In this document: positions 40,738 to 55,710 of the stretch, piece by piece
How positions within the stretch are numbered: position 1 is the stretch's first letter
Layout: each line of letters starts with the position of its first letter
Source: Amycolatopsis balhimycina FH 1894
GTDB lineage: Bacteria; Actinomycetota; Actinomycetes; Mycobacteriales; Pseudonocardiaceae
Assembly: GCF_000384295.1 (NCBI RefSeq)
Contig: NZ_KB913037.1
Span: forward strand, 7,379,533 to 7,443,532
Direction: 5' to 3'
Length of the DNA: 64,000 nt
The notes under the pieces: generated by a model
The model's input: the letters and a program-made list of their open reading frames with translations, nothing else
What the model was told of the DNA's origin: nothing
The model's database searches: none
Position numbers and translations under genes: made by a program

Positions 40738-40784
40738 TGTCTCCGGGCGGCGGCTCCCCTCACCGAGCGGGAGCCGCCGCCTGA

Positions 40785-40859
40785 GGGCGCATAGCTCAGC
40801 GGAAGAGCACTCGGTTTACACCCGAGCGGTCGCAGGTTCGAACCCTGCTGCGCCCACCA
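40785..40859 (+). tRNA. tRNA-Val (anticodon UAC)
   Basis: A complete cloverleaf: acceptor GGGCGCA (40785-40791) pairs with TGCGCCC (40849-40855), the anticodon arm is CTCGG-TTTACAC-CCGAG with anticodon TAC at 40817-40819, and the T arm is GCAGG-TTCGAAC-CCTGC. The discriminator is A and CCA is encoded (40857-40859). The 3' end is the attachment site of the element that follows, so the gene keeps its full sequence but has lost its adjacent terminator. Confidence 0.97.
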
Positions 40860-41946
40860 AGTACTCGTCTTGCACACCGTTAGCAAATGAAAAAACGTTG
40901 CTAGGTGTGACGTCATTATCACTTTCCGTATCGCCACGGCGCGCGCCGCGTCGGCCGCTCGTCGCCCGTCTCTGCTCGCCCGGATGCGTCCCATCGGGTG
41001 AATCTCCGGGCTCGTCTCCGGCCGTCTGGGCCGCGCGGGACAGTCCGCCAGTGCCGCGTGCGTCCGCCAACCGCACCGACAACTCCTGGGCGAGGAGCGC
41101 GGCAAACGGCTCCGTCAGCTCAACCCGCACCACCGAGCCGTCTTGCCCAATGAACAGCTTCACGAAGAAGCCCTGATTGATTTGCCGCCGGACAGGCTCC
41201 GGTGCTGTGGCATAGGCCCGGTGACACCGCCCCGCCGCCGCCAAGGCCGCTTCGAGGGTGCCCTCGACCTCAGCCGTGGAGGTTTGTGCTGCGGCAATCA
41301 GTGCGTCCGCCTCGGCGAGCGTCCGCGTCAGCCGCTTCATCTCCGAGCCGAGCACGTCCTCCGGGATGTGCCCGCATAGTGCGCGCGGAGCAGCTTCTGT
41401 CGCTCGTCCGTCGCCTGTTGTTTTGCGTTTGACCGCCTGAGTCGCGTGGCGGCGTGCCTCCTCCTGGTCGGCAGTCAGCAGCGCTCGCACGCCGGCGCGG
41501 ATCTGTTCGACGTGAGCCGCGCTCACCTCGAACCGCTCGTAGAACCGGGCAATGCCCTCCTCGATACGCTCCAGCCTCACGGCTGGGCGGCGGCAGTTGC
41601 TCGTCTTGGTCTTCTTCTTGACGCACACGTAGTACGTGTAAGCGCCGCCGTTACCGACGTAAATCGAGTAGACCAACCGGCCCCCGCAGTCGGCGCAGTA
41701 GATCGTGCTGCGCAGATAGTGCGTGTGCTTGCGGTCCTTCTCGCCGAGGTGGGCGTGCGCCGCCAAGATGTCTTGGATCGCCAGCCACGTCTCCGGCTCG
41801 ATGAGCGGTGTGTGCTTGCCTTCGTAGTGAATGCCCTGGTACGACACAATGCCCATGAAGTCCCTAAGGAATACTGGACATTCAGTGAGCGGAATTATTT
41901 TTCCGCATTGAGCCGGGAAAATCGACGCCAAGTCGCCTGTCAACAT
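40816..41946 (-). pseudogene. Large serine integrase, 5'-truncated
   Basis: A 376-codon frame. Residues ~25-65 are the end of the Recombinase domain (FLRDFMGIVSYQGIHYEGKH, then LIEPETWLAIQDIL). A zinc ribbon follows with Cys84, Cys87, Cys108 and Cys118, then a long coiled-coil region with many Ala, Glu and Arg. The N-terminal resolvase domain with the catalytic serine is absent, and the upstream AT-rich DNA shows no trace of it, so this is a remnant. The last residues (after LVGA) are only the tRNA-Val gene read backwards, ending at a TAA in the anticodon loop. It points towards attL, as serine integrase genes often do. Confidence 0.85.
40848..40860 (+). repeat. attL core, 13-bp direct repeat at the tRNA-Val 3' end
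   Basis: CTGCGCCCACCAA spans the last acceptor bases, discriminator, CCA and one further A. The identical 13 bases recur at 50717-50729. Identity stops at both edges, which fits the short shared core of a large serine integrase better than the long tRNA identity used by most tyrosine integrases. Confidence 0.85.
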
Positions 41947-42208
41947 GACGGCTCACGGCATATTAGCGAGAGTTGGCGGCATGTTCGCACCGATCTCTGC
42001 TACGGGATAGATTGGGATTGGTAGTGCTTCGCTGGTGATACTTTCGCCCTTGTTGCACTTGAACAACTTTTCGTGATCGCTTATAATGCGGCCGCGCGGT
42101 TGGCATTGCCGCCAGTCTTTCGAGGTCTGATGTAAAGAACTATTGAAATTGATTCTTTACACTGCCTGCGCATCAATCATTTGGCTTCCAGTCATGATTA
42201 TTTTCAGA
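41947..42208. other. AT-rich non-coding stretch of the island
   Basis: No convincing gene. The base composition is much less GC-rich than the chromosome, with runs such as gattgggattggtagtgc and ttataatgcggcc. It covers the point where the integrase gene loses its 5' part, so it probably marks a past deletion or insertion junction. No insertion sequence ends were recognised. Confidence 0.6.
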
Positions 42209-42282
42209 CGCGGGGTAGAGCAGCTCGGTAGCTCGCTGGGACGACTTCCCAGAGGTCGCAGGTTCAAATCCTGTCCCCGCTA
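42209..42282 (+). tRNA. Initiator tRNA-fMet-like gene with replaced anticodon loop (GAC if read)
   Basis: The body is that of actinobacterial initiator tRNA: acceptor CGCGGGG (42209-42215) against CCCCGCT (42275-42281), giving the C1:U72 mismatch; D stem GAGC/GCTC with A11:U24; three G:C pairs in the anticodon stem (CTGGG at 42236-42240 against CCCAG at 42248-42252); and T loop TTCAAAT. The loop should read CTCATAA with anticodon CAT; here it is ACGACTT, so position 33 is C, not T, and positions 34-36 read GAC, a valine anticodon. A32 and T38 could also pair, shrinking the loop to five bases. CCA is not encoded. It may be a functional variant, a decoy or a tRNA fossil. Confidence 0.85.
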
Positions 42283-42498
42283 CAACCCTGACCAGTGCAC
42301 CCCCACGCAGGTTGGTGTCCAAAATCCTGAAAAGGAGGTGTTGCTAAGTCGAAGGCGGAGGCTAACTGACATCAGTCCTACCACACAATCTGGCTGCATC
42401 TGTGGCCGGATCAACCCAACGCTCGGCCTCCTCTGGAGGTCGGGCGACTTTTCGCTTGAGTGCATCTATGCAGTTAGTCACTCTTGCCAGCACTTGAT
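42283..42498. other. Region between the tRNA-like gene and the Imm1 gene
   Basis: A 216-base region, mostly moderate GC, with no supported gene. A perfect aaaaggaggtg ribosome-binding-like sequence occurs near 42329-42339, but the only starts after it are too close and the frame shows no recognisable protein. It lies downstream of the Imm1 gene and probably carries its transcript end. Confidence 0.5.
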
Positions 42499-42894
42499 TT
42501 ACGGCAATTCCTCCCGTTCCAAAAAAGCCACCGCCACCCGCCGCGCCTCAGTTAGCGGCACCTCGTAGCTCGCCGGTATCTCGCTGGCATTGCCCATGTA
42601 GTCATAGACAACCTTACCCGTCAGACTGGCGTCGCCCACGGTGTGCGCCGAGCGCGGAGTCATAAACATAACGAAGCCTGTCTCCTGACCAATCCCCATA
42701 TCAAACACCCCGCGTCGCGGGTCGCCTTGTACGGAGCACTCCACCATCGAGGGGACGGGCATCCCTTTCGTGTCGGCCTGCACTCGGGCAATCAGGGCGT
42801 CGAGTTCGGCGGCCGTGCTCACCAGAATGGGCGGGTCGCCTTCGGCGTAGTCGTTTTCCGGCTCCTGGTTGTACCAGACTTCCAGCGTCACCAC
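42499..42894 (-). CDS. Imm1-family immunity protein
   Basis: A 131-residue acidic protein of the Imm1 family, which neutralises SCP1.201-type deaminase toxins. The start MVTLEVWYNQEPENDY leads to ILVSTAAELDALIARVQ, GVFDMGIGQETGFVMF and VVYDYMGNASEIPASYEVPL, the usual Imm1 progression. It begins with GTG in a 7-base overlap with the toxin stop and has a ggagg site nine bases upstream. A close second copy lies at 50916-51320, beyond the right end of the island. It should bind the toxin in the cytoplasm of the producer. Confidence 0.88.
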   Translation of the reverse strand: MVTLEVWYNQEPENDYAEGDPPILVSTAAELDALIARVQADTKGMPVPSMVECSVQGDPRRGVFDMGIGQETGFVMFMTPRSAHTVGDASLTGKVVYDYMGNASEIPASYEVPLTEARRVAVAFLEREELP

Positions 42895-43640
42895 GGCTTC
42901 GCTCCTCCGGTAAACGTCTTGCGGTACCGCGGTGCGTGTACCGTCATGGAATAGCCGTCCGGCAGGATAACCGGCACCAAGGTGTCACACCCGTACGGAC
43001 CCTTACAGGGCCGGTTATTGAGTGCCACATCCAAGTGCTTCCGTCCTTCGTGCACCATGCGGGCGGCCAGCTTCTGCTCTACGTCCGATACCCGCGTCGT
43101 CTCCGCTGGTACCGGAATGCCGCGCTCTTGCAAGATGGCCCATGCCCGCGCCGAGTCCTCGTCCCGCCCGCTGGCTATCGGGTGCGCCTGGCCGTGCTCG
43201 TCAACCCATTGCCCGTGGGTCTTGACACCCGAGTTGGCGACCACCGGCGGCGGCAGCCCGGCTTGGAGGGCTTCGGCTTGTTCCCGGGTGAGCCGCTGGC
43301 CATCCGGCACCGCCGAGGCCGGCGCGGCGGCAGCTGGTGGCTGTGTCGGCGTCCCAGCCGGGTCGCCGCCTCCGTCCGGCGGGTTGGTGGCTCCGAGGCG
43401 TTCGAGATAGCCGCTCAGCGCTCCGCTGGCGCGACCCACCAGACCGGCTATCTCGCTCGCGCCCTGCGCGGCGGTGCTCAGGCCACCAACAGCCTGCGTC
43501 ATCTCCGGCTGCTGTGAGCCGGTCTGGCTCAAGGCTTGGGCGGCTTCTTCGAGCAGGCTGGCGGCTTGCGTCAGGCTGGCGGTGGACAGCTTGCCCAGCG
43601 CCGTGCGTACGGCTGCCACTAGCTCCGTCACTCCCGCCAT
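42888..43640 (-). CDS. SCP1.201-type nucleic acid deaminase toxin, Asp at first zinc-ligand position
   Basis: A 250-residue protein. Residues 1-83 are an Ala-rich helical head (LVAAVRTALGKLSTASLTQA, then LVGRASGALSGYLERLG). Residues 84-112 are a Gly/Pro/Ala linker, and 113-250 are an SCP1.201-like deaminase of the group that contains DddA. The zinc site has PCKGPYGC with Cys212 and Cys218, and Glu188 is the proton shuttle, but the motif reads SDVEQK where the family has HVE, so Asp186 replaces His. The end, YRKTFTGGAKPW, is typical. Imm1 follows directly, and the upstream gene overlaps by 13 bases. Target (DNA or RNA) and delivery are unknown. Confidence 0.85.
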   Translation of the reverse strand: MAGVTELVAAVRTALGKLSTASLTQAASLLEEAAQALSQTGSQQPEMTQAVGGLSTAAQGASEIAGLVGRASGALSGYLERLGATNPPDGGGDPAGTPTQPPAAAAPASAVPDGQRLTREQAEALQAGLPPPVVANSGVKTHGQWVDEHGQAHPIASGRDEDSARAWAILQERGIPVPAETTRVSDVEQKLAARMVHEGRKHLDVALNNRPCKGPYGCDTLVPVILPDGYSMTVHAPRYRKTFTGGAKPW

Positions 43641-44143
43641 GATCGCCCCCAGTGTCCATACTGGCTGTTCAACGGCTTGCTATCACTGCCCGCGCGGGGT
43701 GACGAGGACGAGTCCGCGTCGCGCCTCGGCCAGCTCGGCGGTGGTGGCGGTCGCTCGGGCAGCTGGCGCAGGCCGTCCAAGACGCGCTGCATAGCGGTGC
43801 GGTCTGGCACCGTGAACCGGGACGGTGGTTGCGGGCGCGACGGCTGGCGGTGTGGCTCGGCGCGCTGAACGTACAGCCGGGGCCGCCGGGGCAGTACCGA
43901 CCGCAGGGGCGCTGTGGGCAGGTCCGCCGGGGCCGGCTGAACCCGGGGCAGTACTTCTGTGGGCGCGCTGGCCGCCTCGGCCTCGGCCCACTCGGCAGCG
44001 ACGCGTTCCCGAATCCCGGCCACCGTGTGGCTCCGGTCCGCCCGCACCCGGCGGTTGTGCCGAGCATCGTGCAACACGATCCCCGCGACCAGCACCACGG
44101 GTACCGCCACGACCACGAGCACCGCCAGTGCCCCGCCGTTCAC
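43628..44143 (-). CDS. Single-pass membrane protein in the deaminase operon
   Basis: A 171-residue protein with one N-terminal membrane helix (ALAVLVVVAVPVVLVAGIVL, residues 5-24). A basic segment (HDARHNRRVRADRSHTVAGI) and a long, Pro- and Arg-rich, probably disordered tail follow, ending SQYGHWGRSWRE. No family is recognised. It overlaps the deaminase start by 13 bases and the upstream gene by four, so it is made from the same mRNA. Its position between the helical repeat protein and the toxin suggests a membrane adaptor, but that is inference. Confidence 0.7.
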   Translation of the reverse strand: MNGGALAVLVVVAVPVVLVAGIVLHDARHNRRVRADRSHTVAGIRERVAAEWAEAEAASAPTEVLPRVQPAPADLPTAPLRSVLPRRPRLYVQRAEPHRQPSRPQPPSRFTVPDRTAMQRVLDGLRQLPERPPPPPSWPRRDADSSSSPRAGSDSKPLNSQYGHWGRSWRE

Positions 44144-44556
44144 GCTTCGGGCGGCGCGTCCGGCGGTGGCTCGGGTTGGTTGACTTGCTTCGGCGTGACG
44201 GGCGACGCGGGCAGTTGCTCGGCGTACAACCCCACAACGTCACCGAGCGCGGCCAGCCACCCGCTGACCTCCTGGAGTCGGTCCCGCGACATCGTCCCCG
44301 CTCGCAGCCGCGCACCCACCGCCATCAGCTGACGACCGGACAACGCCAGCCGGTCAGCCAAGGCCATGGGTGTCTCGCTCGCCGCCGGTTCTCCGGCGTG
44401 GGCTGCCACCACATCGGCCAGCTCCGCCAGGAGCCCGGCGAATTGCCGCTGTCGCTCTGGGGGCATGGTCCCGGTGGCCAGCTCCCGGACGACCGTAGGC
44501 ACGGCCCGGTGCACGCTGCCGAGGCTGGTTATGAGTTCCGCCGTCTCCGGTGTCAT
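44140..44556 (-). CDS. Helical protein with an internal duplication, deaminase operon
   Basis: A 138-residue, all-helical protein of no recognised family. It contains a duplicated unit: residues 25-57 (ELATGTMPPERQRQFAGLLA...) and 84-116 (LRAGTMSRDRLQEVSGWLAA...), sharing the GTM-x-RxR, G-W/L-LA-L-DVV pattern. The C-terminus is Pro-rich. It overlaps both neighbours by four bases (ATGA). Paired helical repeats of this kind could form a four-helix bundle, but no function is assigned. Confidence 0.7.
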   Translation of the reverse strand: MTPETAELITSLGSVHRAVPTVVRELATGTMPPERQRQFAGLLAELADVVAAHAGEPAASETPMALADRLALSGRQLMAVGARLRAGTMSRDRLQEVSGWLAALGDVVGLYAEQLPASPVTPKQVNQPEPPPDAPPEA

Positions 44557-44906
44557 GCCGGGCTCACCGGCGCGAACCAGTCCGGCTGTTCGTGCTGATC
44601 TTGGGCTATCTGGACTGCCGCCCGTTCGGCCAAGCCGGCGAGCCGCGCCAGGTAGGCGTCACGCTGGCGAATGCCGTGCTCCGTCAGCCGCGCCCAGCCC
44701 TCTTGCCCGACGCCGCGCCGCGTATCGACGTACCCGGCTGTTCGTAGCGCGAAGAACTGGCGCTTAAGCCGGTCCTGGCTCACCCCCGTGGCCTGGCACA
44801 AGAAGGTGAACCGGCACCACTGCGCGTCGCGCAGCAGACACAGCAGATGCACCCGCAAGGGGTCCGGCAGCACCGTGTCATGGGTGGCGGCAAACGTCCT
44901 GCTCAT
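44553..44906 (-). CDS. Winged-helix DNA-binding protein, deaminase operon
   Basis: A 117-residue protein with a MarR/HTH_34-like winged helix: DPLRVHLLCLLRDAQWCRFT, then LCQATGVSQDRLKRQFFALR (recognition helix) and GYVDTRRGVGQEGWARLTEH (wing), followed by a helix for dimerisation. It probably regulates the operon it belongs to. ATG at 44906 is used because the domain begins soon after; the open frame extending upstream belongs to another frame of the neighbouring gene. It overlaps both neighbours by four bases. Confidence 0.8.
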   Translation of the reverse strand: MSRTFAATHDTVLPDPLRVHLLCLLRDAQWCRFTFLCQATGVSQDRLKRQFFALRTAGYVDTRRGVGQEGWARLTEHGIRQRDAYLARLAGLAERAAVQIAQDQHEQPDWFAPVSPA

Positions 44907-45322
44907 GCCGGTGCCCCCGCCCCGGCCGGCAGGCGACGCTGCTCCGTCCGTCGGGCTCCCGGGTGTCGCAGCGCCAGCACTTCCGCTCCCGCAAACTCCT
45001 CCAGATATGCGCACATCGCCGCTTGCAGCTGCGCGTGGAGTGCCAGGTGCCGCAGACTCGGCACCACTACGTGCCTCGCGCCCGTGTGCACCAGTTCGGC
45101 CGCCAGCTCGTCGAACGCCTCCCGCGAGCCACAGTGGAACTCGAAGAAGAACCCCGCGAAGGTCAGCCCGTGGCTTTGCGCAAACCGGATCACAGTCTGC
45201 TCGAGGTGCCGCACCTTGTGGTCCGGGACATGGGCCGGAACCCGCATGTAGCCGTAAGCCAGCCGGGCCGCCGGGGCCGGCTCCGCCGTCTCGGGAAGCT
45301 GCAGGAGCGCTGAGGTCGTCAT
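44903..45322 (-). CDS. Resolvase-fold protein without catalytic serine, first gene of the deaminase operon
   Basis: A 139-residue protein shaped like the N-terminal domain of serine recombinases. The strand YGYMRVPAHV (residues 23-32) aligns with the GYxRVS motif, but Pro29 stands where the catalytic Ser should be. LTFAGFFFEFHCGSREAFDE and HVVVPSLRHLALHAQLQAAM follow, matching the ExxSGxxxxRP and VVxxLxRL elements of resolvases only in outline. No DNA-binding tail is present. It is therefore unlikely to recombine DNA and may bind DNA or a partner. It heads the operon, in the divergent region opposite the XRE regulator. Confidence 0.75.
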   Translation of the reverse strand: MTTSALLQLPETAEPAPAARLAYGYMRVPAHVPDHKVRHLEQTVIRFAQSHGLTFAGFFFEFHCGSREAFDELAAELVHTGARHVVVPSLRHLALHAQLQAAMCAYLEEFAGAEVLALRHPGARRTEQRRLPAGAGAPA

Positions 45323-45594
45323 GGGTCTCGTCCTGGGTTGTTGCCGGTCGTGGGTGGTATTCCGGCGGCCAGGACTTCGCGGGGGAACGGGTAGTGCGTG
45401 CGGGAGTTCGCCCGTGACCTCGGAGGCACAGAAGAGGTGGTCAACCGGCCGCCGGGATACCGGAACCGACTTTTCCGGGCCGCCACCGGACCCACCAGGG
45501 CGACGATCTGACCCGGATGCGGCGCAGATCTTGCGTTCGGCCGTCTGACCTGCGGTAATGTGTCGACCGCACGGCGTAACGACAGGAGACGATC

Positions 45595-46860
45595 ATGGGC
45601 GGCCGACGAACCCGGCTCATCCGGGCACGTAAGGCGGCCTACTACACCCAAGAGTCACTGGCGTACGCCTTGAACGTCGACCCCGCCACTGTCGGGCACT
45701 GGGAGCGTGGCCGGTCTGAGCCGCTCCCGTTCAAGCGCCCGAAGCTGGCGAAACTGCTGGGGGTCAGCCGCGAGCAGCTGGAAGTACTGCTGGCCGAAGG
45801 GCAGACCCCACCTGCGCCGTCTGCCGACACCGAGCAAGACGGCGAACTCATGGAGGCGGAGGTAGCGTCCGACCCTATGAAGCGACGGACGCTCATGAAG
45901 TGGGGTGTCGCCACTACCGCCGCCTCAGGCCTCGGGGTTGAAGCCTTCGGCCAGATTGGCATGGCCGACGTGCGGCGCTTGGAACGCACCACGGACCGGC
46001 TCTGCAACCTCGATCACCGGCACGGCGGCGAGACGCTCTGGCGGGCCGGAGCCGCTACCGCCCAGGAAGCCGCGGTGATGCTGGAGCAGGGTCGTTACAC
46101 CACCGGCGTCGGGCACGCGCTGCTCGCCGCCACCGGCAACCTGCACATCCGCACCGGCTGGCTGGCTTGTGACGCCGGACGGCACGATGTCGCTCGTACA
46201 AGCTTCACTGAAGCCTTGACCATCTCCCGCCAGGCCGGCGATCCCGAGATTGAAACCCGCGCGCTCGCCGGGCTGGGCTTCCACAGCAATCTCGTCGGCC
46301 GTCCCCGCGAAGGCCTGCGCTTCTCCGGGGCTGCCGAGGACGCCGTCCGTCGGTTGGGGCCGTCCTCGCGCATGACTGCCGTCCCGCTGCTGCACCTGGC
46401 CGTCGCCAACGCCCGCAGCGACGACTACAGCGACGCTCAAGCCGCTATCTCCCGTGCCCGCAAAGCCCTTGATGCCGACCGCGGTGAGGAGGCCGCCCCG
46501 TGGGCGGCTTTCATGAGCCCGATGGAGATCGACGCGGTGGAGGCCACCTGCGCGGTGGAAGTCGGCAAGTCGGCTCGCGCTGAGCAGCTCCTAGAGCAGG
46601 CTATTGCCGGATACGGCGACGGCTTCGCCCGCAACATCGCGCTCTACCGGGTCCGGTTGGCCGCCGCTCGTGTGCTGGCCGGAGCCATCGACGGGGCAAC
46701 CGAAGCCGCCGAAGATGTGCTCGACACCATCGCAGATGGGCTCGACAGCTGGCGCGTCAGCTTGGAGCTGGGCCGGGTCATGGACTCGCTGGAGGCGTAC
46801 CCTGGCGCGCCCGGCGTTCAGGCGCTTCAGGAGCGCTACGCCACTATGATCGCGGTATGA
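45595..46860 (+). CDS. XRE-type regulator with TPR-like C-terminus
   Basis: A 421-residue regulator. The helix-turn-helix occupies about residues 8-62 (KAAYYTQESLAYALNVDPAT, then VGHWERGRSEPLPFKRPKLA). A linker follows with a KRRTLMKWG segment, then TPR-like helical repeats (TSFTEALTISRQAGDPEIET, AALAGLGFHSN-like) through to the end. Regulators of this kind bind a peptide or protein through the repeats. A TAATGT -10-like box lies upstream of the ATG near 45556, after the divergent region of 272 bases shared with the deaminase operon. It overlaps the GNAT gene by four bases. Confidence 0.85.
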   Translation: MGGRRTRLIRARKAAYYTQESLAYALNVDPATVGHWERGRSEPLPFKRPKLAKLLGVSREQLEVLLAEGQTPPAPSADTEQDGELMEAEVASDPMKRRTLMKWGVATTAASGLGVEAFGQIGMADVRRLERTTDRLCNLDHRHGGETLWRAGAATAQEAAVMLEQGRYTTGVGHALLAATGNLHIRTGWLACDAGRHDVARTSFTEALTISRQAGDPEIETRALAGLGFHSNLVGRPREGLRFSGAAEDAVRRLGPSSRMTAVPLLHLAVANARSDDYSDAQAAISRARKALDADRGEEAAPWAAFMSPMEIDAVEATCAVEVGKSARAEQLLEQAIAGYGDGFARNIALYRVRLAAARVLAGAIDGATEAAEDVLDTIADGLDSWRVSLELGRVMDSLEAYPGAPGVQALQERYATMIAV

Positions 46861-47411
46861 TCGCTGCGCCGCCGCTCACCCTGCGCCATCACGACGCTGC
46901 CGGGATGCATGAGCTGCGCGATCTGCTTATCGCGGTTTATACGGAGGTCTACGCCGATCTGCTGTCGGACCCGTTCTTCTCGCCCGAGCGCTACTGGCAG
47001 CGGCTGGAGAGCTATGCCAAGTGGCCGGGCTTCGCCCTGGTCACGGGCTGGCTCGGCGATGACCTCATTGGTTACACGCTGGGCTACACCCTGCCGAAGG
47101 GTTCCGCCTGGTGGCGCGGCTTCCAGGGCGACGTCCCGCCCGGCGCGCTCGAAGAGGATGGCAAGCGCACCTTCGCCGTCACGCAGCTGATGGTGCTCCC
47201 CGTTCACCAGCGACGCGGCTACGCCGGGCAGCTCCACGACGCGCTCCTAGCCGACCGCCCCGAGGAACGAGCCACCTTGCTCGTCAAGCCCGACAACGTC
47301 CCGGCCCGCACCGCCTACTTGTCGTGGGGGTGGCAGCGCTTCGGGCGGTTGCAGCCGTTTAACGATGCGCCGGTGTATGACTCGCTGATGATTGAGCTCG
47401 ATAGGGCTTAG
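46857..47411 (+). CDS. GNAT family acetyltransferase paired with the XRE/TPR regulator
   Basis: A 184-residue acetyltransferase. The core motif is RTFAVTQLMVLPVHQRRGYA, then GQLHDALLADRPEERATLLV (acetyl-CoA site), and the fold ends PVYDSLMIELDRA. The ATG overlaps the regulator stop by four bases. Pairs of an XRE/TPR regulator and a GNAT are common on actinobacterial mobile DNA, but the acetyl acceptor is not known. It could modify a metabolite, a protein or, as in some toxin systems, an aminoacyl-tRNA; nothing here decides this. Confidence 0.82.
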   Translation: MIAAPPLTLRHHDAAGMHELRDLLIAVYTEVYADLLSDPFFSPERYWQRLESYAKWPGFALVTGWLGDDLIGYTLGYTLPKGSAWWRGFQGDVPPGALEEDGKRTFAVTQLMVLPVHQRRGYAGQLHDALLADRPEERATLLVKPDNVPARTAYLSWGWQRFGRLQPFNDAPVYDSLMIELDRA

Positions 47412-47578
47412 CCAACCAGCTCACCAGTTGCGCGCGACCATGTACGGCCGTAGGTAGTTGTTCACGCCACCCTTCCCTGAGTCGTCACCCCGTGGCGGGT
47501 GAAACACGCCGCTGTCTAGCTGCGACTACTCGGCAAGACCAGCGGGCGAAGGCAACCGATACGGCGGAGGTGGTTCTC

Positions 47579-47944
47579 GTGAACGACCGCCCATATCAAT
47601 ATCATTCAGAGTCCGAGCTAAACCAGATTCTGAGAAGTATTGAACCTCTCCTCAACAAGAAGATTAAAGAAAAACAAGAAATGCCAATTGACTGGACCGA
47701 TTACCCTTCCCTGGTGGCCCACATAAACTCGATGAGTGATACTATGCATCAAATCAACCTTGAATTTACAGCACGACGAGAGAAGCGCAGGCAACAAGCC
47801 GAGGCGCGGGCGACGAGCGCTGCTGCGGCAGCACAACCAATGGCAGCACCTCCACCAGGGTGGTACCACGATCCTGCCAACCCAAAGCGGATAGTCAGAT
47901 GGGATGGCCAACAGTGGGCAGAAGAACTGTGGATTGCCGGGTAA
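47579..47944 (+). CDS. Small protein with C-terminal DUF2510 domain
   Basis: A 121-residue protein. The first 80 residues are charged and helical (EPLLNKKIKEKQEMPIDW, then EFTARREKRRQQAEARATSA). A C-terminal DUF2510 module follows (PPGWYHDPANPKRIVRWDGQ, then QWAEELW), which in actinobacteria usually lies at the N-terminus of membrane proteins. GTG at 47579 has a ggaggtgg site; the longer open frame upstream has no such site. Lower GC here marks it as part of the acquired DNA. No function is known. Confidence 0.72.
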   Translation: MNDRPYQYHSESELNQILRSIEPLLNKKIKEKQEMPIDWTDYPSLVAHINSMSDTMHQINLEFTARREKRRQQAEARATSAAAAAQPMAAPPPGWYHDPANPKRIVRWDGQQWAEELWIAG

Positions 47945-48030
47945 ACTCCTTACCTGCAAGCTGCGAGACAATCTCGAATTCCCATATATGATCCGGAGCA
48001 CCTGATAGGCGCGCGTAGTATAATCCGACT

Positions 48031-48952
48031 ATGACGAAACGTATCAACCCAGCGGTGCTGCATCCTCTCAAAGAGGCGCTGCGCCTAACGTTTTGGTACA
48101 AGAACGATCTCCGCGCCTTTCTTAATGCCTGCCTTGGCGATCGCGTGTTGGTCGCGCGGCTGGACTGGACGGCGTATAAGCGCGAGATCGTCGCGCAACT
48201 CGTTGACCTCCTTGCGGCCGACCAGCACAAGTACTTCGATCTGCTGCTGAACTTGCTCCTCGCGGTTGCGGAAGTTGACGACCCCCGGCACCTCAAGACC
48301 CTTGAAGATGGCGTAAAGAAGTATAGCGACGCGGTCGAGGCTCTTGCCGTCCTCCGTAAGCAAGTCGAGCCCCTATCGGAAGTTCAGGAACGACCAGGAC
48401 GAAGCTGCTCGGCGCCGGGAGGCTGAACGAGCAAAAGACGAGAATGCACGCGCTATGGCAGATAAGCTCGTGGAGCTTCGCCAAGATTTCATAACGATCA
48501 CAGGTCAAGAGGCGCAGCGTCGAGGTTACTCGCTTGAGAAGTTCCTAAATGAGCTATTTGCTCTGTATGACATCGACGCGAAGGGTTCATTTCGTGTTTA
48601 TGGAGAACAGATCGACGGCGCCTTCACGTTTCAAGGTGTTGAGTACTTGTTGGAAGCAAAGTGGCACAAAGATTTGACGCCACTCGCAGACCTGGACGTC
48701 TTCTCCGGAAAGGTCAATCGTAAGCTCGACAATACGCTAGGCTTGTTCGTCTCAATGATGGGGTTTCAGCCCAGCGCCATAGAGCTCGCGACCGACGGTC
48801 AGCGGCCTGCCTTGCTGCTGATGGACGGCTCGGACCTGATGATGGCTCTTGATGGACGGATCGCATTTCCCGAGCTGCTGAAACGCAAGCGCCAGCATGC
48901 GGCCCAAAACGGTGACGTCTTCCTGCGCGCCACTCAGATACTTAGCGAATAG
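48031..48952 (+). pseudogene. Restriction-endonuclease-like gene with a frameshift at a CCCC run
   Basis: Two overlapping frames rejoin into one protein of about 306 residues. The first (48031 to ~48370) gives MTKRINPAVLHPLKEALRLT and QLVDLLAADQHKYFDLLLNL, an actinobacterial helical N-terminal domain. The second, starting after 48371, continues FRNDQDEAARRREAERAKDE and then a Mrr-like PD-(D/E)xK nuclease core (QIDGAFTFQGVEYLLEAKW, with Asp and ExK). Reading gag-ccc-tat instead of gag-cccc-tat restores the frame, so one extra C at 48370-48373 breaks it. This is a mutation, an assembly error or a +1 frameshift site. Confidence 0.75.
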
Positions 48953-48972
48953 CGAACTCGGTGCCGACGGGC

Positions 48973-50218
48973 TCACATGCGATAGAGCTTCTCGGGTGGC
49001 TCATGCTCGGGTTGCCAGTCTTCGTTATCAGGGTGAGATTGCCAGAACTCTCGTAGTGATTGGAGGCTGTTGCCAACCTGTCGGAGCAAATCGATCTGCT
49101 TGTGTACAAAAGTCTGATCGGTGATGTTCTTGCGGAGTGTGTGAGCTGGCCTTTGGCGTGCCTGTCGCACCTCGCGGAAAGGCTTCAATACTCGGCGTAC
49201 GGCGTCTTCAGGAACATCGCGTGTCGTCAGCAATATGCCAAGTCTGCTGAGAGTACCCATGTTCGCGCCGTGTTCGTCAGTGCGTGGAACCTCTGGCAAG
49301 TCTAGGCCGTCATGACGAAGGTTCTCGGATAAGAGCTTGTCGAGCTGATGAACGAAGTTGTCCCACTCTGCCTGAGACGGGCGCAGAATCCAGCCGAAGT
49401 CACCCGGCCGCTCAGTCGTCTTCAGCAGGGGCTTGCCGAACGCGCGTTGATGAAGCTCGTTAAGGTTCCGAAGCTCGAAGAAGATTCGCGCAAATGGCCC
49501 GATACCGTCCGGTCAGCCTCCCATCTGCTGCCGCCACCACGCCGGGTGAGGCTGGAGACCTTCCTCCGGAACCTGATACGTTTTCCAACGCTGCTGATGT
49601 ATTGGGGTCAACTTGGCAAGATCGCCATAGAATGCACAGACGCGACGAATTATCGGCGAGTCCGGGTCGGCGGCGTCATACTTTGAAATGTCGTAGGCGA
49701 ATCCAATATGCTGCATACCCGTCTTGTCGTGTTCTGGCTCGCTGCTGTCGAGGTAGACTTCATCGCTTGTCGACACTCGAGCTCCGAAGTCATAGAAGTC
49801 GAATGAGAACCGAGGGTCATTGCGGTACTGTTCAAGTACGTACGTCGAACCTGAAGTAGGCGAGTTCCAGAGTTCCACGACCTTTGGCCATCGCCTGCCG
49901 GAAAGGCTGGCCAGTGTGACGCCTTGTTGGCCGATGCTTCTTGAGGGCGACGGGGGTGGGGTATAGGCATAGCCCATAGCCATCAGAAGTCAGAGAATCG
50001 ATCGAAGCAACCTGCTGCTCGATACTGCGCTCGGACGGCCAAGGTCGAATGTGCGGATTTAGGTAGTCCTCCTGGGAGACCACCTGGACCATGCTCTCGC
50101 GTACCAGCTCTACCGCGGCACTCTTCCTCGCCCGATCCTCGCCGGTGAGGTAGAGACCATTGAAGTCCGGAGACGATCCGTAAAACTTCAACACCTCGCG
50201 TAAGAGCTCGTCCTTCAT
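48973..50218 (-). pseudogene. Broken gene of unknown function (frameshift and in-frame stop)
   Basis: Three segments fit one protein of about 415 residues. The first runs from ATG 50218 (MKDELLREVLKFYGSSPDF) to about 49960. The frame then shifts near the G-run at 49952-49961 and continues through WPKVVELWNSPTSGSTYVLE to a TGA at 49513-49515. The same frame goes on after that stop (IFFELRNLNELHQRAFGKPL) to 48973. The long, in-frame continuity of non-repetitive sequence indicates a once intact gene. No family is recognised. Its lower GC content fits the island. Confidence 0.6.
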
Positions 50219-50276
50219 CGTGCAATTATCGCATAGCCATCAGCTGCGGCGCGGCAAGCGCTCGATAGCGCATGCG

Positions 50277-50729
50277 CTATCGCCTTGAGTGTCGTCCTCG
50301 TGGCCGCATCGTGACCCCATTCGCGACCAGTCGGGCGCGAATCGTCTCGTTGCCGACCTGGTATTTGAGCGCGACCTGATCGAGTGTCCATCCGTCCCGG
50401 TAGAGCTGGGAGGCGTCTTCGACGTCCTCGGGCAGGAAGGTGAACGGTCGGGTGTCGATGCCGCGAGCGCGAAGGTGTTGCCCGATCGTCGTTCGGTACA
50501 CGCGGTATGTATGGGCCAGTTCGCGAATCGAGGCTCCGGTGCGGAACTCTTCGATGAGCCGGTCGACCTCTTCCGGGCGAAGCTGACGGGCTGTTCGCAG
50601 CTGCCGGTGCGTCAAGTGTCTGACAGGCTCGTCCGCAGACGCCTGCGGCTCCGGCCAGCTCGCGGCCAATTTCAGCAGTCGTTGAACCTGGTGCGATGGG
50701 TGGGCAAACTCCTCAACTGCGCCCACCAA
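50277..50729 (-). CDS. Tandem helix-turn-helix protein whose frame starts in the attR core
   Basis: A 150-codon frame with two similar HTH units: LRPEEVDRLIEEFRTGASIR followed by ELAHTYRVYRTTIGQHLRAR, and LPEDVEDASQLYRDGWTLDQ followed by VALKYQVGNETIRARLVANG. Such units occur at the C-terminus of resolvase-type recombinases. The first codons (TTG GTG GGC GCA) are the attachment core itself, and no start with a ribosome-binding site lies downstream. In an excised circle this frame would join the integrase frame in phase (both read LVGA through the core). It may thus be the far end of the integrase gene rather than an independent gene. Confidence 0.6.
   Translation of the reverse strand: MVGAVEEFAHPSHQVQRLLKLAASWPEPQASADEPVRHLTHRQLRTARQLRPEEVDRLIEEFRTGASIRELAHTYRVYRTTIGQHLRARGIDTRPFTFLPEDVEDASQLYRDGWTLDQVALKYQVGNETIRARLVANGVTMRPRGRHSRR
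50717..50729 (+). repeat. attR core, 13-bp direct repeat
   Basis: CTGCGCCCACCAA, identical to 40848-40860. The chromosome resumes to its right with a strong terminator that would have ended tRNA-Val transcription before the island arrived. Confidence 0.82.
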
Positions 50730-50743
50730 ACCACGCTTGTTCC

Positions 50744-50787
50744 AACCCGATCCGGTGACTTCCTCACCGGATCGGGTTTTGTTGTTT
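50744..50787 (+). terminator. Intrinsic terminator displaced from tRNA-Val
   Basis: Perfect 15-base arms (AACCCGATCCGGTGA at 50744-50758 and its complement at 50764-50778) with a 5-base loop, followed by a T-rich run (ttgttgttt). It begins 14 bases after the attR core. In the uninterrupted chromosome it would stand just after the tRNA-Val CCA end. Confidence 0.9.
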
Positions 50788-50915
50788 CGCCGCCCAGACC
50801 GCCCCTGACGTCGTCGAACGCCGTCTGGAAGACGTTGCCCGCACCGCGCGGGCTGTCGAGCGCTTCGGACAGGGTCTACTCGCTAGCTGAGAGCCGGCAA
50901 GGGCAACAGCTTGCC

Positions 50916-51320
50916 CTACACCCCTGACGGCAGCTCTTCTCGCTCCAAGAACGCCAGCGCCGCAGCTCGCACCTGTTCCATGGGCACCTCGTACTGGGCC
51001 GGGATCTCCCGCACATGCGCCATGTAGTCGTAGATGACTTCACCGGTAAGGCTCGGATCGCCCACGGTCTGCGCGGCCACGGGTGTCACGAAGACGACAA
51101 GGCCCTTCTCCTGCCCGACGCCCAGGTAGAACACCCCACAGCTCGGATCGCCGGATACCGAGCACTCGGCCATCGGCGGTACTGGCTGGTCCTTGCTGTC
51201 GGCCTGCATACGCTGGATGAGCGCGTCCAGTTCGTCAGCGGTGCTCACCAGGATGGCCGGGTCGCCCTCGGAGTAGTCGTTCTCCGGCTCCTGGTCGTAC
51301 CAGACTTCCAGCGTGACCAC
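50916..51320 (-). CDS. Imm1-family immunity protein, second copy
   Basis: A 134-residue intact Imm1 protein, closely similar to the copy at 42499-42894 (MVTLEVWYDQEPENDYSEGD, ILVSTADELDALIQRMQ, VIYDYMAHVREIPAQYEVPM). It begins with GTG at 51320, one base after the TAA that ends the frameshifted deaminase copy. Since its toxin is broken, it is an orphan that could still protect against the intact toxin in the island. It lies outside the attR core. Confidence 0.85.
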   Translation of the reverse strand: MVTLEVWYDQEPENDYSEGDPAILVSTADELDALIQRMQADSKDQPVPPMAECSVSGDPSCGVFYLGVGQEKGLVVFVTPVAAQTVGDPSLTGEVIYDYMAHVREIPAQYEVPMEQVRAAALAFLEREELPSGV

Positions 51321-51321
51321 G

Positions 51322-51860
51322 TTACTTGCCTCCGGTGAACGTCTTGCGGTAGTTCGGGGCGTGCACGGTGAGTGAGTACCCCTTGGGGAGGATAACCGGC
51401 AGGAGGGTGTCACACCCGAACACGCCGCGGCAGGGTCGTTGTTCAGGACGAGGTCCACGTGTTTGCGTCCTTCGCGCACCATCCGGGCGGCGATCTTTTG
51501 TTCGACGTCGGCCGTGGTGGTGACGTCCCCACGTTGCGGGAGGCCCTTCTCACGGAGCAGCCGCGCCGGCGAACTGGCTGGGCTGACGGTGTCCTCGGGC
51601 GATGTTGTCGCTCCGATCCGCTCGAGGTAGCCGGTAAGCGTGGCGTTGACCTTTCCGACCACGTTCGTCGCGTCGCCAAGCCCCTGCTCGGCAGCGTTGA
51701 GCCCCGAGATGGCGTTCTGTATCTCGTGCTGCCGTGAGCCAGTCTGCGCGAGGGCCTGCATGGCCTCGCCGAGCAGGCCGGCGGCTTCGGTGAGCTTGGC
51801 GGTGGACAGCTTGCCGAGCGCCGTGCGAACGGCTGCCGCCAGCTCCTCGACACCCGCCAT
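51322..51860 (-). pseudogene. SCP1.201-type deaminase toxin, frameshifted second copy
   Basis: The N-terminal head matches the island toxin (MAGVEELAAAVRTALGKLST, then EAMQALAQTG). The linker is shorter, with most of the segment before the catalytic core deleted. The core keeps ADVEQKIAARMVREGRKHVD, again with Asp where the family has His. At about 51436-51440 one C is missing between the two Asn codons and the Arg codon; restoring it gives the PCRGVFGC zinc motif and the terminal YRKTFTGGK before TAA at 51322. Without it the frame runs into the Imm1 gene. This is a decayed relative of the 42888-43640 toxin. Confidence 0.82.
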
Positions 51861-51994
51861 GATCGCCCCCGACCCCAATCTTGGCTGTTCAGCGGGCTGG
51901 TGTCACGTTCCACCTGGAAGCGCCCGCCGGCTGTCTTTGAAGGTGGTAGCCCGTCGGACGCCGCTTCCTGGTCGCCGGCGTGTTCGTTTCGCTT

Positions 51995-53440
51995 TCAGGC
52001 CGCCATCGCCGGTTCGGGTGCGACGGCCTCCGTGCGGCGCATCGTCGTCACCAGCACGGCCAGCCCCGCGAACAGCACCGCCGCGATCACGCCCGTGACG
52101 TTCAGCGCGCTCGTGAACGCCTCCTTCGCCTGGTCCGCCACCGCCGGGTGGGTGACGTCGGCGGCCAGGGTGGTGCCCGCCGGGAAGACCCCGCGGTAGA
52201 CCGCCGCCGCGGTCAGGCCGATCAGGGCCAGGCCCAGGGATCCGCCGAGGTAGTTGCCCGTGTCCGCCATCGATGCCGCCGAACCGGCCCGCTCCGGCGG
52301 CACCGAGCCCATGACCAGGCCGATGCCCAGCGCGAACAGCGGGCCCGTGCCCAGCGTCAGCACCGCGATGGCCACCATGACCAGCGCGGGGCCGCTGGTG
52401 AAGACCAGCAGCAGGCTGCCGGCCGCGGAGAGCGCCAGCCCACCCGCGATCGCCGTGGCCGGTGCCATGAACCGGGTCAGCGCCGGTGCCGTCATCGTCC
52501 CCACCGCCACGCCGAGGCCCATCGGCGCGAACAGCACGGCCGAGACCAGCGGCGAGTAGCCGAGGACGCTCTGCAGGTACTGCGTGACCATCAGGCCGAC
52601 GCCCGCCATCGCCACGCCGGCGAACACCAGCGCCACCAGCACGGCGGTGAACGGCCGGTTGCGGAACAGCCGCAGGTCCAGCAGCGGCGAGGCCGTCGTC
52701 AGCTGGCGGCGGACGAAGACCACTCCCAGCAGCGTCCCGGCTGCGATCGCCGCGAGCGGCAGCGTCAGCGAGCCAGTAGTCAGCTGCTTGAGGCCGAACA
52801 CGATCAGCAGCACGGCGGCCAGCGACAGCGCGACGCCGGCGAAGTCGAGCCGTCCGGACGACGGCGCGCGGAACTCCGGCAGCAGGAACGGGCCGGCGGC
52901 GAGCAGGACGACCACGGCCGGGACGGCGACCAGGAACACCGAGCCCCACCGGAAGTGCTGCAGCAGGAAGCCGGCGAACACCGGGCCCGCCGCGCCGCCC
53001 GCGAACTGGCAGGTCGCCCAGATCGAGATGGCCTTCCCGCGCTGCTTCGCGTCGCGGAACATGTTCGTAATCAGGGCGAGCGTCGACGGCATCAGCGTTG
53101 CCCCCGCGACGCCGAGCGCCCCGCGGACGACGATGAGCATCTCCGGGCTGGTCGAGAACGCGGCCACCACGGAGAGGGCCCCGAAGGCGCCCCCGCCGAC
53201 GAGCAGCAGCCGCCGTCGCCCGATCCGGTCGCCGAGCGTGCCCATGGTGATCACGAAGCCGGCGACGACGAAGCCGTAGCTGTCGGTGATCCACAGCTGC
53301 TCGGTGCCGCTCGCGCCGAGATCCGCGCTCAGCTGCGGCAGGGCGAGGAACAGCGAGGTCATGTCCATCGCGACGAGCAGGGTGGGCAGGACGAGCACCG
53401 TCAGCCCCAGCCACTCCCGCCGTCCGGCCGGCATGTCCAT
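51995..53440 (-). CDS. MFS drug-exporter-like protein, DHA2 (EmrB/QacA) family
   Basis: A 481-residue, 14-helix major facilitator. The loop 2-3 motif is GTLGDRIGRRRLLLVGG near residue 62, and the helix 5 antiporter motif region is RGALGVAGATLMPSTLALIT near residue 104. It resembles LfrA and other QacA-type proton antiporters that export cationic drugs. ATG at 53440 follows aaggagtcgaa. It is divergent from an SDR gene, with about 110 bases between them. No adjacent TetR gene is seen; the MarR regulator lies three genes away. Confidence 0.9.
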   Translation of the reverse strand: MDMPAGRREWLGLTVLVLPTLLVAMDMTSLFLALPQLSADLGASGTEQLWITDSYGFVVAGFVITMGTLGDRIGRRRLLLVGGGAFGALSVVAAFSTSPEMLIVVRGALGVAGATLMPSTLALITNMFRDAKQRGKAISIWATCQFAGGAAGPVFAGFLLQHFRWGSVFLVAVPAVVVLLAAGPFLLPEFRAPSSGRLDFAGVALSLAAVLLIVFGLKQLTTGSLTLPLAAIAAGTLLGVVFVRRQLTTASPLLDLRLFRNRPFTAVLVALVFAGVAMAGVGLMVTQYLQSVLGYSPLVSAVLFAPMGLGVAVGTMTAPALTRFMAPATAIAGGLALSAAGSLLLVFTSGPALVMVAIAVLTLGTGPLFALGIGLVMGSVPPERAGSAASMADTGNYLGGSLGLALIGLTAAAVYRGVFPAGTTLAADVTHPAVADQAKEAFTSALNVTGVIAAVLFAGLAVLVTTMRRTEAVAPEPAMAA

Positions 53441-53551
53441 TTCGACTCCTTCATCGTGGGTTCGTTCACGAGGAGGTCGGAGCCGCGGGGGAGGACCGGA
53501 CACGGGGCCGGAATTTTTTTTCGGGTTGCCGGGATCACTAGCGTCGAAGCC

Positions 53552-54133
53552 GTGAAGATCATCGTGCTGGGCGCCACCGGCTTGGTCGGACGAGCCGTCG
53601 TCGCCGCCCTCGAACCACGCCACGCGGTCGTGCCCGTCTCGCGGACCTCCGCGATCCGGGCCGACCTGACGGATCCCGCGTCGTTCGACGCGCTGTTCGA
53701 CGACCCGGCCGACGCCGTCGTGTGCTGCGCCGCCAACGTGCCGCTGCGGCCCCTCGCCGCGTTGACCGGCGAGCAGGCGCTCGAAGACCTGCGTGGCAAG
53801 CTGCTCGGCCAGGTCGCCCTCGCCCGGCGGGCCGCGGAGCACCTGACCGGCGGCGGCTCGATCACGCTCACCGGCGGGACCTTTACCGAGCCGATCGCCG
53901 GCAGCGGGCTCGGCGCGCTCGTCAACGCCGGGCTCGAAGGGTTCGTCCGGTCGGCCGCCGTGGAGCTGCCGCGCGGCTTGCGGATCAACGTCGTCAGCCC
54001 TGGCTGGATCAGTGAAACCCTCGAGGCGATGGGGGAGGACGGCGGCCGCGGGACGCCGGTCGCGGTCGTCGCCGAGGCCTACCGGGCCCTCGTCGAAGGT
54101 GACGCGAACGGCCGGACCGTCGTCCCCCGGTGA
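53552..54133 (+). CDS. Short SDR-family protein lacking the catalytic Tyr-Lys
   Basis: A 193-residue short-chain dehydrogenase-like protein with a Rossmann start IIVLGATGLVGRAVVAALEP and a later LRINVVSPGWISETLEAMGE. Where SDRs have YxxxK it reads GLGALVNAGLEGFVRSAAVE, so neither Tyr nor Lys is in place. Short SDRs with this feature are known in bacteria, and may bind NAD(P) without catalysis or use other residues. The GTG start lies after a gcgtcgaagcc stretch. It is divergent from the MFS gene and convergent with the AhpD-like gene. Confidence 0.82.
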   Translation: MKIIVLGATGLVGRAVVAALEPRHAVVPVSRTSAIRADLTDPASFDALFDDPADAVVCCAANVPLRPLAALTGEQALEDLRGKLLGQVALARRAAEHLTGGGSITLTGGTFTEPIAGSGLGALVNAGLEGFVRSAAVELPRGLRINVVSPGWISETLEAMGEDGGRGTPVAVVAEAYRALVEGDANGRTVVPR

Positions 54134-54139
54134 CCGGAC

Positions 54140-54685
54140 TCACGCCGCGTGCCAGGCGTGCTCGGCGAAGACCTCGTCGAGCGGCGCGCGGGTGAGCCGG
54201 TTCGCGAACGTCGACAGCGTGTACGTCCCGATCCCCAGCACCACCTCCAAGGCGTTCCGTTCGGTGTAGCCGGCGCCGGTGAACGCCGCCAGCTGCTCGG
54301 CCGGGACCTCGCCCCTGGTGTCCATGACCGCGTGGACGAAGACGCGCAGCGCCTCCAGCCGCGGCTCCGGGAGCGGGGACTCCGCCCGCAGCGCCGCCAC
54401 CAGTTCCGGGGAGGCGGACAGGCGGGTCAGCGTGGCCGTGTGCATCGCCACGCAGAGGTGGCACTCGTTGCGCGCGGCCACGGTCATGATCAGCACTTCG
54501 CGTTCCAGCGCCGTCAGGGTCGTGGCTTCGAAGATCGCGCTGAGCTTGAGGAAGCCGTTGAGCAGTTCCGGTGAGGTCGCCAGCCGGGCGACGGCGGACG
54601 GCACGCGGCCGAACTTCTTCGCGGTGGCCGTCATCGCGGGGCGCGCGGCCGGGGGTGCAGACTCCGGGGTGTGATCGGCGAACAA
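54140..54685 (-). CDS. Carboxymuconolactone decarboxylase/AhpD-like protein
   Basis: A 181-residue all-helical protein. The AhpD-type redox motif is NECHLCVAMHTATLTRLS near residue 73, with both Cys of CxxC and the following His. Helices before and after fit the CMD fold. It likely acts in peroxide or thiol metabolism as a disulfide reductase partner, the usual role of CxxC members. It is divergent from the MarR gene, with its start in the operator region, so it is the probable target of that regulator. Confidence 0.86.
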   Translation of the reverse strand: MFADHTPESAPPAARPAMTATAKKFGRVPSAVARLATSPELLNGFLKLSAIFEATTLTALEREVLIMTVAARNECHLCVAMHTATLTRLSASPELVAALRAESPLPEPRLEALRVFVHAVMDTRGEVPAEQLAAFTGAGYTERNALEVVLGIGTYTLSTFANRLTRAPLDEVFAEHAWHAA

Positions 54686-54704
54686 GGTGACTCCTCAGGT
54701 AGGA

Positions 54705-54744
54705 TCGACAACGTGGTTGTCGAAACCGTAAACCTGGTTGTCGA
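54705..54744 (+). promoter_or_regulatory. MarR operator candidate between the AhpD-like and MarR genes
   Basis: The perfect 19-base palindrome TCGACAACGTGGTTGTCGA lies at 54705-54723. Its right half recurs as a direct repeat, ACCTGGTTGTCGA, at 54732-54744. It sits between the divergent starts at 54685 and 54760, ideal for autoregulation by the MarR protein. The short palindrome with a 3-base centre is the shape MarR dimers bind. Confidence 0.8.
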
Positions 54745-54759
54745 ATTTGGCAAGGGGTC

Positions 54760-55224
54760 ATGACCGACACGCCTGGGTACGAGCTGCCCTTCCTGCTCTT
54801 CGGCGGCTTCCGCACGCTCATCGACCGCCTCCACGCCGAGCTCGCGCGCCGCGGACACCCGGACGTCCGGCCGTCGTACGGCTTCGCCATGCAGGCGGTC
54901 GGCGTCCACGGCGCTACGGCGTCGGAGATCGGGCGCCGCCTCGGCGTCTCCAAGCAGGCGGCGGGCAAGACCGTCGAACGGCTGGAGGCGCTCGGGTACG
55001 CCGAGCGCGCCGACGACCCCGCCGACGCGCGCCGCAAGATCGTGCGGCTCACCGCGCACGGCGTCGACGCGCTCAGGAAGTCGGCGGACATCTTCGACGA
55101 CCTGCGCGCGGAGTGGGTACGCGCGGTCGGCGCCGAGCGGATCAGCGCGCTCGAGGCCGACCTGCGCACGGTCGTCGGCCCCGCGGCGTACCGGCTGGAC
55201 GCCGCGGGCTGGTTATCGAGCTAG
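54760..55224 (+). CDS. MarR-family regulator
   Basis: A 154-residue winged-helix regulator. The recognition region is GATASEIGRRLGVSKQAAGK, then TVERLEALGYAERADDPADA and RRKIVRLTAHG forming the wing (DxRxK-like). It begins with the family-like YELPFLLFGGFRTLIDRLHA. The operator-like palindrome lies directly upstream, and the divergent AhpD-like gene is the probable target along with itself. MarR proteins often respond to oxidants or phenolics, which fits that neighbour. Its stop overlaps the convergent cupin gene by four bases. Confidence 0.9.
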   Translation: MTDTPGYELPFLLFGGFRTLIDRLHAELARRGHPDVRPSYGFAMQAVGVHGATASEIGRRLGVSKQAAGKTVERLEALGYAERADDPADARRKIVRLTAHGVDALRKSADIFDDLRAEWVRAVGAERISALEADLRTVVGPAAYRLDAAGWLSS

Positions 55225-55649: not shown

Positions 55650-55710
55650 CGGCCCAAGCTACCGCGTCCGGGCGTGCCCTTGGGGGCAGTGTTCCGGGTA
55701 GCGTGCGCCC

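Follow-up and report, generated by a model that had tools for sequence, protein, structure and literature searches.

A tRNA gene with an intact bacterial initiator body and a replaced anticodon loop lies in a genomic island of Amycolatopsis balhimycina FH 1894, and it is followed by a conserved Shine-Dalgarno sequence (SD) and a triplet that matches the new anticodon; the same combination, with another matched pair of anticodon and triplet, is found in a second genus of the Pseudonocardiaceae, Kibdelosporangium. The gene was analysed within a window of 64,000 nucleotides (contig NZ_KB913037.1), and positions below are those of the window unless another locus is named. We interpret the arrangement as a self-contained unit in which an anticodon-swapped initiator tRNA is encoded together with its cognate non-AUG start site, a reading to which we assign a probability of roughly 0.48. 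That the unit is transcribed, that its tRNA is charged and that this tRNA is used at the linked start site is what we infer from the sequence.

The tRNA occupies 42209..42282 on the forward strand and scores 47.9 bits against the Rfam tRNA model (RF00005, gathering score 29), which marks it as a full tRNA. ARAGORN also calls it, labelling 42209-42283 ‘tRNA-Val (gac)’. A preliminary description of this DNA had recognized an initiator-type tRNA here, and every mark that it named is present: the C1:T72 mismatch, A11:T24, GGG/CCC below the anticodon loop and the TTCAAAT T loop. The anticodon loop, positions 32-38 of the tRNA (42241..42247, forward strand), reads ACGACTT, with the anticodon GAC at 42243-42245 and a C at position 33. 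The last base is A73, followed by CAA, with no encoded CCA. The host genome (G000, one contig, 10.86 Mb) contains two other near-full-length matches to this tRNA (L002 and L003), both of them ordinary initiators with the loop CTCATAA. The swapped tRNA is identical to these copies at 67 of 74 positions, and its seven differences are G9A and six of the seven loop bases. The earlier observation thus holds, although the G9A change and the CAA 3′ end had gone unmentioned. The chance of at least six of seven differences landing in the seven loop positions is 2.6e-7 (hypergeometric), which bears out the earlier argument that a preserved body with a changed loop speaks against random decay. With respect to the 3′ ends, CAG and CCA follow the two host initiators, so that one of the normal copies also lacks an encoded CCA.

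The features that separate initiator from elongator tRNAs give a mixed result. There is no Watson-Crick pair at 1:72 (C1xT72), the pairs 29-31:39-41 are GGG/CCC, and the D stem GAGC/GCTC provides an A:U pair as R11:Y24, all of which holds for both the window tRNA and its Kibdelosporangium counterpart (locus L011). The CAU anticodon of tRNA-fMet is absent, with GAC in the window and UAC in Kibdelosporangium. These anticodons, together with A73, correspond to the NAC and A73 of an elongator tRNA-Val, whereas the paired 1:72 and the elongator type of anticodon stem are missing (C1xU72, three G:C pairs). The window tRNA is accordingly neither a tRNA-fMet, on account of its anticodon, nor an elongator tRNA-Val, on account of its 1:72 position and stem. 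It shares with normal bacterial tRNA-fMet the C1 mismatch, A11:U24 and the three G:C pairs, in addition to its 67 bases in common with the host copies, but differs in carrying ACGACTT (window) or CTTACTT (Kibdelosporangium) in place of CTCATAA, and the swapped anticodons cannot be of the methionine type. The U37 found in both loops and the C33 of the window loop, where U33 is near-universal, are unusual in decoding tRNAs.

The second locus was found with a pattern scan for initiator bodies without C34, which returned two stretches (L010 and L011) in a collection of 84,980 genomes, a scan in which records near the window's own genome may be left out and swaps that keep C34 are invisible to the pattern. 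The search patterns here and below were exact or nearly so. L011 belongs to Kibdelosporangium philippinense, also of the Pseudonocardiaceae, and carries the loop CTTACTT (CUUACUU) with the anticodon UAC; ARAGORN again applies the label tRNA-Val. This genome also has two copies whose anticodon loop is the normal CTCATAA; in one of these the T loop reads TTCGAAT. Compared with its own normal initiator (L017), the L011 tRNA differs in four loop bases, in one D-loop base and in the pair 28:42, which has gone from T-A to C-G; since both sides of this pair have changed together, selection on the tRNA fold would be expected to produce a change of this sort. A contamination of 8% is listed for the K. 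philippinense assembly, but the swapped tRNA lies in a 2.84-Mb contig. In 390 genomes of the family, a relaxed loop pattern matched only the window's genome and K. philippinense, and in samples of 397 order and 394 class genomes, which overlap with each other and with the family sample, the loop pattern matched one genome each, in both cases the window's own. The preliminary description had named the absence of the variant from every other genome as an outcome that would count against it; K. philippinense keeps one. On these comparisons the swapped initiator tRNA is not a one-off but a family, and a very small one of two loci. The other stretch from the scan, L010 in Candidatus Enterovibrio luxaltus, has the loop CTGATAA, one base off normal. 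It was set aside as a relative and treated as unrelated because it has neither the shared loop nor the downstream motif; the initiator-like tRNA at L010 4108-4148, called as tRNA-Ile(gat), is probably a decaying copy in a symbiont.

Searches of mobile DNA gave ordinary initiators in IMG/VR and in the two plasmid places opened. In IMG/VR there were 0 stretches with the same body and another base at position 34, 35 or 36, 0 with the ACTT loop, 0 combining the tRNA 3′ end with the motif, and 0 for two patterns in which the D stem, not the T arm, was required. The normal loop in the same body was present in at least 120 IMG/VR contigs, and a viral origin of the swapped tRNA was rejected on this comparison. 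Plasmid relatives were likewise rejected: BLAST gave 289 plasmid records, and the two places opened from later searches (L013 and L014) hold ordinary CAT initiators. A further search gave 184 phage records. No database record covered 80% of the window unit, nor did any cover 80% of the K. philippinense unit. As a separate observation, the two large Streptomyces plasmids of L013 and L014 bear extra ordinary initiator tRNA genes, which, with the IMG/VR contigs, places ordinary initiator tRNAs on mobile DNA.

Downstream of both swapped tRNAs lies a common block, which starts 46-51 nt behind the tRNA and consists of GGAGGTG, seven nucleotides and the triplet GUC (window) or GUA (Kibdelosporangium). 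In the window it begins with AAAGGAGGTG (42331..42340, forward strand), which we take to be a strong SD from its complementarity to the 16S 3′ end. The window block reads AAAGGAGGTGTTGCTAA followed by GTC GAA GGC GGA GGC TAA, and the Kibdelosporangium block GGGGAGGTGTTGCCGA followed by GTA GGC GGA GGT GAA GGA CCA CCT TGC TAG. In each case the triplet is the exact complement of the anticodon of its own locus, GAC with GUC in the window and UAC with GUA in Kibdelosporangium, and the crossed pairings (GTA at the GAC locus, GTC at the UAC locus) are absent at such spacing. The complementarity extends beyond the anticodon, as the site offers matches to loop bases 37, 38 and 33 too. In the window, AAGTCG (42346..42351, forward strand), which contains the GTC at 42348-42350, is the complement of loop bases 33-38 with six Watson-Crick pairs. 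At both loci this site is, by a small margin, the best loop-complementary heptamer in the 250 nt downstream of the tRNA, with 6 of 7 Watson-Crick pairs in the window (score 12, next best 11) and five Watson-Crick and two G-U pairs in L011 (score 12, next best 10). The earlier suggestion that such a tRNA would start translation at GUC gains support from the cognate GUC at SD spacing, 65 nt behind the tRNA, and from the second locus, where a GUA stands in the same place behind the tRNA with UAC. As far as sequence goes, the window has the elements of the engineered GAC/GUC pair discussed below: an initiator body, a GAC anticodon and a GUC behind an SD.

GGAGG with a cognate triplet 5-11 nt further on arose in 113 of 5000 dinucleotide shuffles for the window and 137 of 5000 for L011, so that an SD with a cognate triplet by chance, at about 2-3% per locus, is not extreme. 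Between them the two hosts have four normal initiators, none of which is followed within 250 nt by GGAGG and an ATG at this spacing. The sequence GGAGGTGTTGCYRAGT, common to the window and K. philippinense, has four exact matches in the 390 family genomes, two of them just behind the swapped tRNAs and the other two in 3-kb loci that lack a tRNA. Similarity between the two loci downstream of the tRNA was reached by 3 of 1000 shuffles and upstream by 452 of 1000, and the alignment of the terminator region persisted once the motif had been masked (20 of 500 shuffles as good). Elsewhere in the genome, AGGAGG-N5-9-AAGTCG sites number 8 versus 6 for a reversed control, and no other GUC-start candidate stands out. 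SD-GTC sites in the island are not commoner than those of several triplets (GTC 8, GTT 8, TTG 8, GTG 12, GCC 19, GTA 2, ATG 1, with separate counts for overlapping SD words). The whole case comes from two loci, and the complementarity was noticed after the fact. Because the loci share ancestry, and because an alignment accommodates a substitution at the third triplet base and an in-frame 3-nt insertion equally well, the matched change counts about once.

If GUC and GUA are starts, each opens an ORF of a few codons behind the strong SD, as in a minigene: five codons in the window (42348..42365, forward strand) and nine in its counterpart (L011 6130-6101). That these mini-ORFs are coding is our inference, and they diverge in length and sequence past GGCGGAGG. 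A terminator-like hairpin of 12 pairs with a T-rich tail follows at 42420..42446 (forward strand), a consensus match of which one was found against a shuffle mean of 0.4, and its counterpart at L011 5969-5940 is likewise a consensus match (one found, shuffle mean 0.6). Upstream of the tRNA, a promoter-like site TTGAAC-17-TATAAT matches the consensus at 10 of 12 positions (42059..42087, forward strand); none was found at the K. philippinense locus. Between this site and the tRNA, the inverted repeat TGTAAAGAA-N13-TTCTTTACA (42131..42161, forward strand) has one match in the window with 0 expected, and this is its sole place in the whole genome; it may be an operator. A different palindrome, CACAAGCGCTTGTG, precedes the L011 tRNA within L011 6290-6310. 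The possibility of a second tRNA downstream was also considered, as GGAGGTGTTGC resembles the start of a Ser or Leu tRNA, and was dropped since neither Rfam nor ARAGORN called one. In predicted folds, a hairpin takes up part of the SD region of the window unit and an extra A32:U38 pair reduces the loop of the window tRNA to five bases. For the K. philippinense unit at its full length of 327 nt, the prediction breaks the acceptor stem, although the tRNA by itself gives a cloverleaf.

The window unit is located 1.35 kb behind a chromosomal tRNA-Val(UAC) gene (40785..40859, forward strand), at whose 3′ end the island begins. The site is empty in G492, one of 11 relatives compared, where 56 nt separate the end of the tRNA-Val (corresponding to 40857) from the sequence at window position 52002. 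Since G492 runs almost straight from the tRNA-Val to an MFS gene that ends near 52000, we regard 40858..52000 (about 11 kb, limits approximate) as the island. In the remaining ten relatives, other sequence follows at the junction, and some have no window segment in the stretch compared. The 3′ side of the tRNA-Val(UAC) (40859 on; L149-L159) is a variable junction at which some of the 11 relatives resume at 52002, 54146, 54186 or 57891. An ORF on the reverse strand (40816..41946) contains the zinc-ribbon part of a large serine recombinase (PF13408, E=4e-8; a weak XisF match fell below the cut-off); an N-terminal resolvase domain is unmatched in this ORF, and only two more open codons lie upstream. 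The island also encodes an NsdA-family regulator and, at 48344-48952, a protein with a restriction-endonuclease-like Mrr_cat domain. DddA-like deaminase toxin and Imm1 immunity regions occur twice (42499-43640 and 50916-51878), about 8.2-8.4 kb apart and 67-75% alike, the second with a shorter matched deaminase stretch in one frame with Imm1. Cargo does not appear to be shared between the two loci, as 0 of 82 island ORFs (at least 50 aa) have a match at E 1e-4 among the 282 ORFs of a stretch of about 40 kb surrounding the K. philippinense copy. The preliminary description had also offered the swapped tRNA as a recombination target. That explanation is weakened, since the island site is the tRNA-Val(UAC) and a direct-repeat search of 40780-56000 found no second copy of the swapped tRNA, with only a 71% match to the tRNA-Val.

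Such a unit would work as follows. The swapped initiator tRNA and a start site read by that tRNA only would be made as a small transcription unit. The tRNA keeps the sequence features for formylation and P-site entry; the 1:72 mismatch and three G:C pairs are linked to these functions and to exclusion from elongation in the available text of PMC8576571 and PMC7949028, which describes C1xA72 of E. coli where the present tRNA has C1xU72. Valine determinants include A35 of the anticodon and discriminator A73 (available sections of PMC9976931), and in E. coli, ValRS charges the GAC mutant of the initiator, which is formylated and initiates at GUC (excerpts of PMC2268962). By extension from this E. 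coli work, the anticodon GAC, or UAC in Kibdelosporangium, together with A73 would probably lead to charging with valine by ValRS and then to formylation. An engineered chimeric initiator carrying N-acetylproline gave more product in vitro with GUA/UAC than with AUG/CAU (excerpts of PMC10450175). Once charged, the tRNA would bind the 30S subunit at the strong SD 3′ of its own gene and pair with GUC (or GUA), and loop bases 37, 38 and 33, which match the mRNA too, could help. Normal fMet-tRNA would read GUC or GUA there poorly, and the mini-ORF of five or nine codons would be started privately. The output step is a guess: a tiny peptide, or else an effect as a leader or minigene by which the swapped tRNA is reported or limited.

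A more ambitious version of this scheme, which we put forward tentatively and with some doubt, is a natural orthogonal initiation cassette, in which one transcript would carry a valine-type initiator together with the sole start codon read by it, and in which anticodon and start codon would have co-evolved between lineages (GAC/GUC, UAC/GUA). At its boldest, the proposal is that the tRNA acts in cis before processing, docking on the 30S subunit beside its own SD, which would make it the bacterial counterpart to tRNA-mimicking IRES elements.

The 6-7 bases of complementarity between loop and site exceed the needs of codon reading, and pairing off the ribosome therefore stays a live rival. Here the loop and the downstream site would pair as RNA, as a kissing or antisense interaction, and form a cis element or a 30S-binding decoy, with an SD and codon mimic held by the tRNA, without productive initiation. 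We consider this unlikely. It would account for U37 and U38, odd bases in a decoding tRNA that are nevertheless conserved and that have partners in the RA preceding the triplet, and the very short mini-ORFs would fit it as well. However, the initiator marks that are irrelevant to pairing (C1xU72, the three G:C pairs and A11:U24) have all been retained, the site stands exactly at SD spacing in both loci, and the loop-site pairing is absent from standard folds of both units, made with a program that cannot show pseudoknots. Rather improbable, too, is a fossil, that is, a duplicated initiator gene on mobile DNA that has lost its function and drifts, with a downstream match due to chance. The non-loop bases speak against drift, being as in a normal initiator at 66 of 67 positions in the window and 64 of 67 in L011 when 6 of 7 and 4 of 7 loop bases have changed, as do the second copy in another genus with its compensated stem pair and the conserved block from SD to triplet. 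The surroundings, an island with an incomplete recombinase frame and duplicated toxin cassettes nearby, would suit a fossil, and the rarity of the swapped tRNA (2 of 390 family genomes) points the same way; its lack of an encoded CCA does so too, but is shared by one normal host initiator.

VapC-like or colicin-like nucleases are candidate attackers of the initiator anticodon arm, and the tRNA could be a decoy, or an initiator resistant to such cutting that shields or substitutes for the host's own under attack. The wholly replaced loop in an otherwise kept molecule and the many toxin and immunity genes of the island would suit this role. We nevertheless judge it improbable, because AUG genes are out of reach for a tRNA whose anticodon is GAC or UAC, so that it cannot replace the host initiator, and because the matched downstream triplet is left unexplained; the island proteins scanned (part of its ORFs) also gave 0 matches to VapC-like or tRNA-nuclease families. 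A plain elongator valine tRNA, as annotation tools have it, is very hard to credit. ARAGORN labels both copies tRNA-Val, but the window copy has C33 and not the near-universal U33. Furthermore, both copies have a 1:72 mismatch and three G:C pairs, features by which initiators are barred from elongation (excerpts of PMC8576571 and PMC7949028).

The private start unit that we favor can be compared with three known systems. The engineered G34C36 (GAC) E. coli initiator of Schulman and RajBhandary likewise combines an initiator body with a GAC anticodon and needs a GUC start, and was charged by ValRS and formylated (excerpts of PMC2268962). That pair is man-made, changed in anticodon bases only and used with a reporter elsewhere, whereas the window tRNA is natural, has most of its loop changed and has its start site in cis. 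In the dicistrovirus intergenic IRES, an anticodon-like pseudoknot and a non-AUG start share one RNA (available text of PMC4132737); the window unit has complementarity of loop and site in cis, and differs in its complete, probably processed initiator tRNA and its bacterial SD. Minigenes and leader mini-ORFs are likewise very short, and they can have a regulatory role in cis (a two-codon minigene in the available part of PMC8708949); the mini-ORF of the window differs in having a non-AUG triplet as its putative start, which fits the tRNA gene directly before it. Among the matches listed in a search of the open-licence PMC literature, there was no natural anticodon-swapped initiator, and the engineered precedents exist. 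To our knowledge, a cis-linked unit of tRNA and start codon would have no counterpart in bacteria.

In the textbook view, bacteria have one initiator specificity, CAU, and GUG and UUG starts are read by the same fMet-tRNA. The contrast between GAC/GUC in one genus and UAC/GUA in the other makes the idea of a private start directly testable with reporters. If it is true, gene finders would miss genes that start at GUC or GUA, and ‘tRNA-Val’ labels would hide the tRNA genes that serve them. It would also provide a natural scaffold for orthogonal initiation, which has so far been engineered. A natural initiator with another anticodon and its own start site would mean that cells, or the mobile elements within them, may run a second, private start signal.
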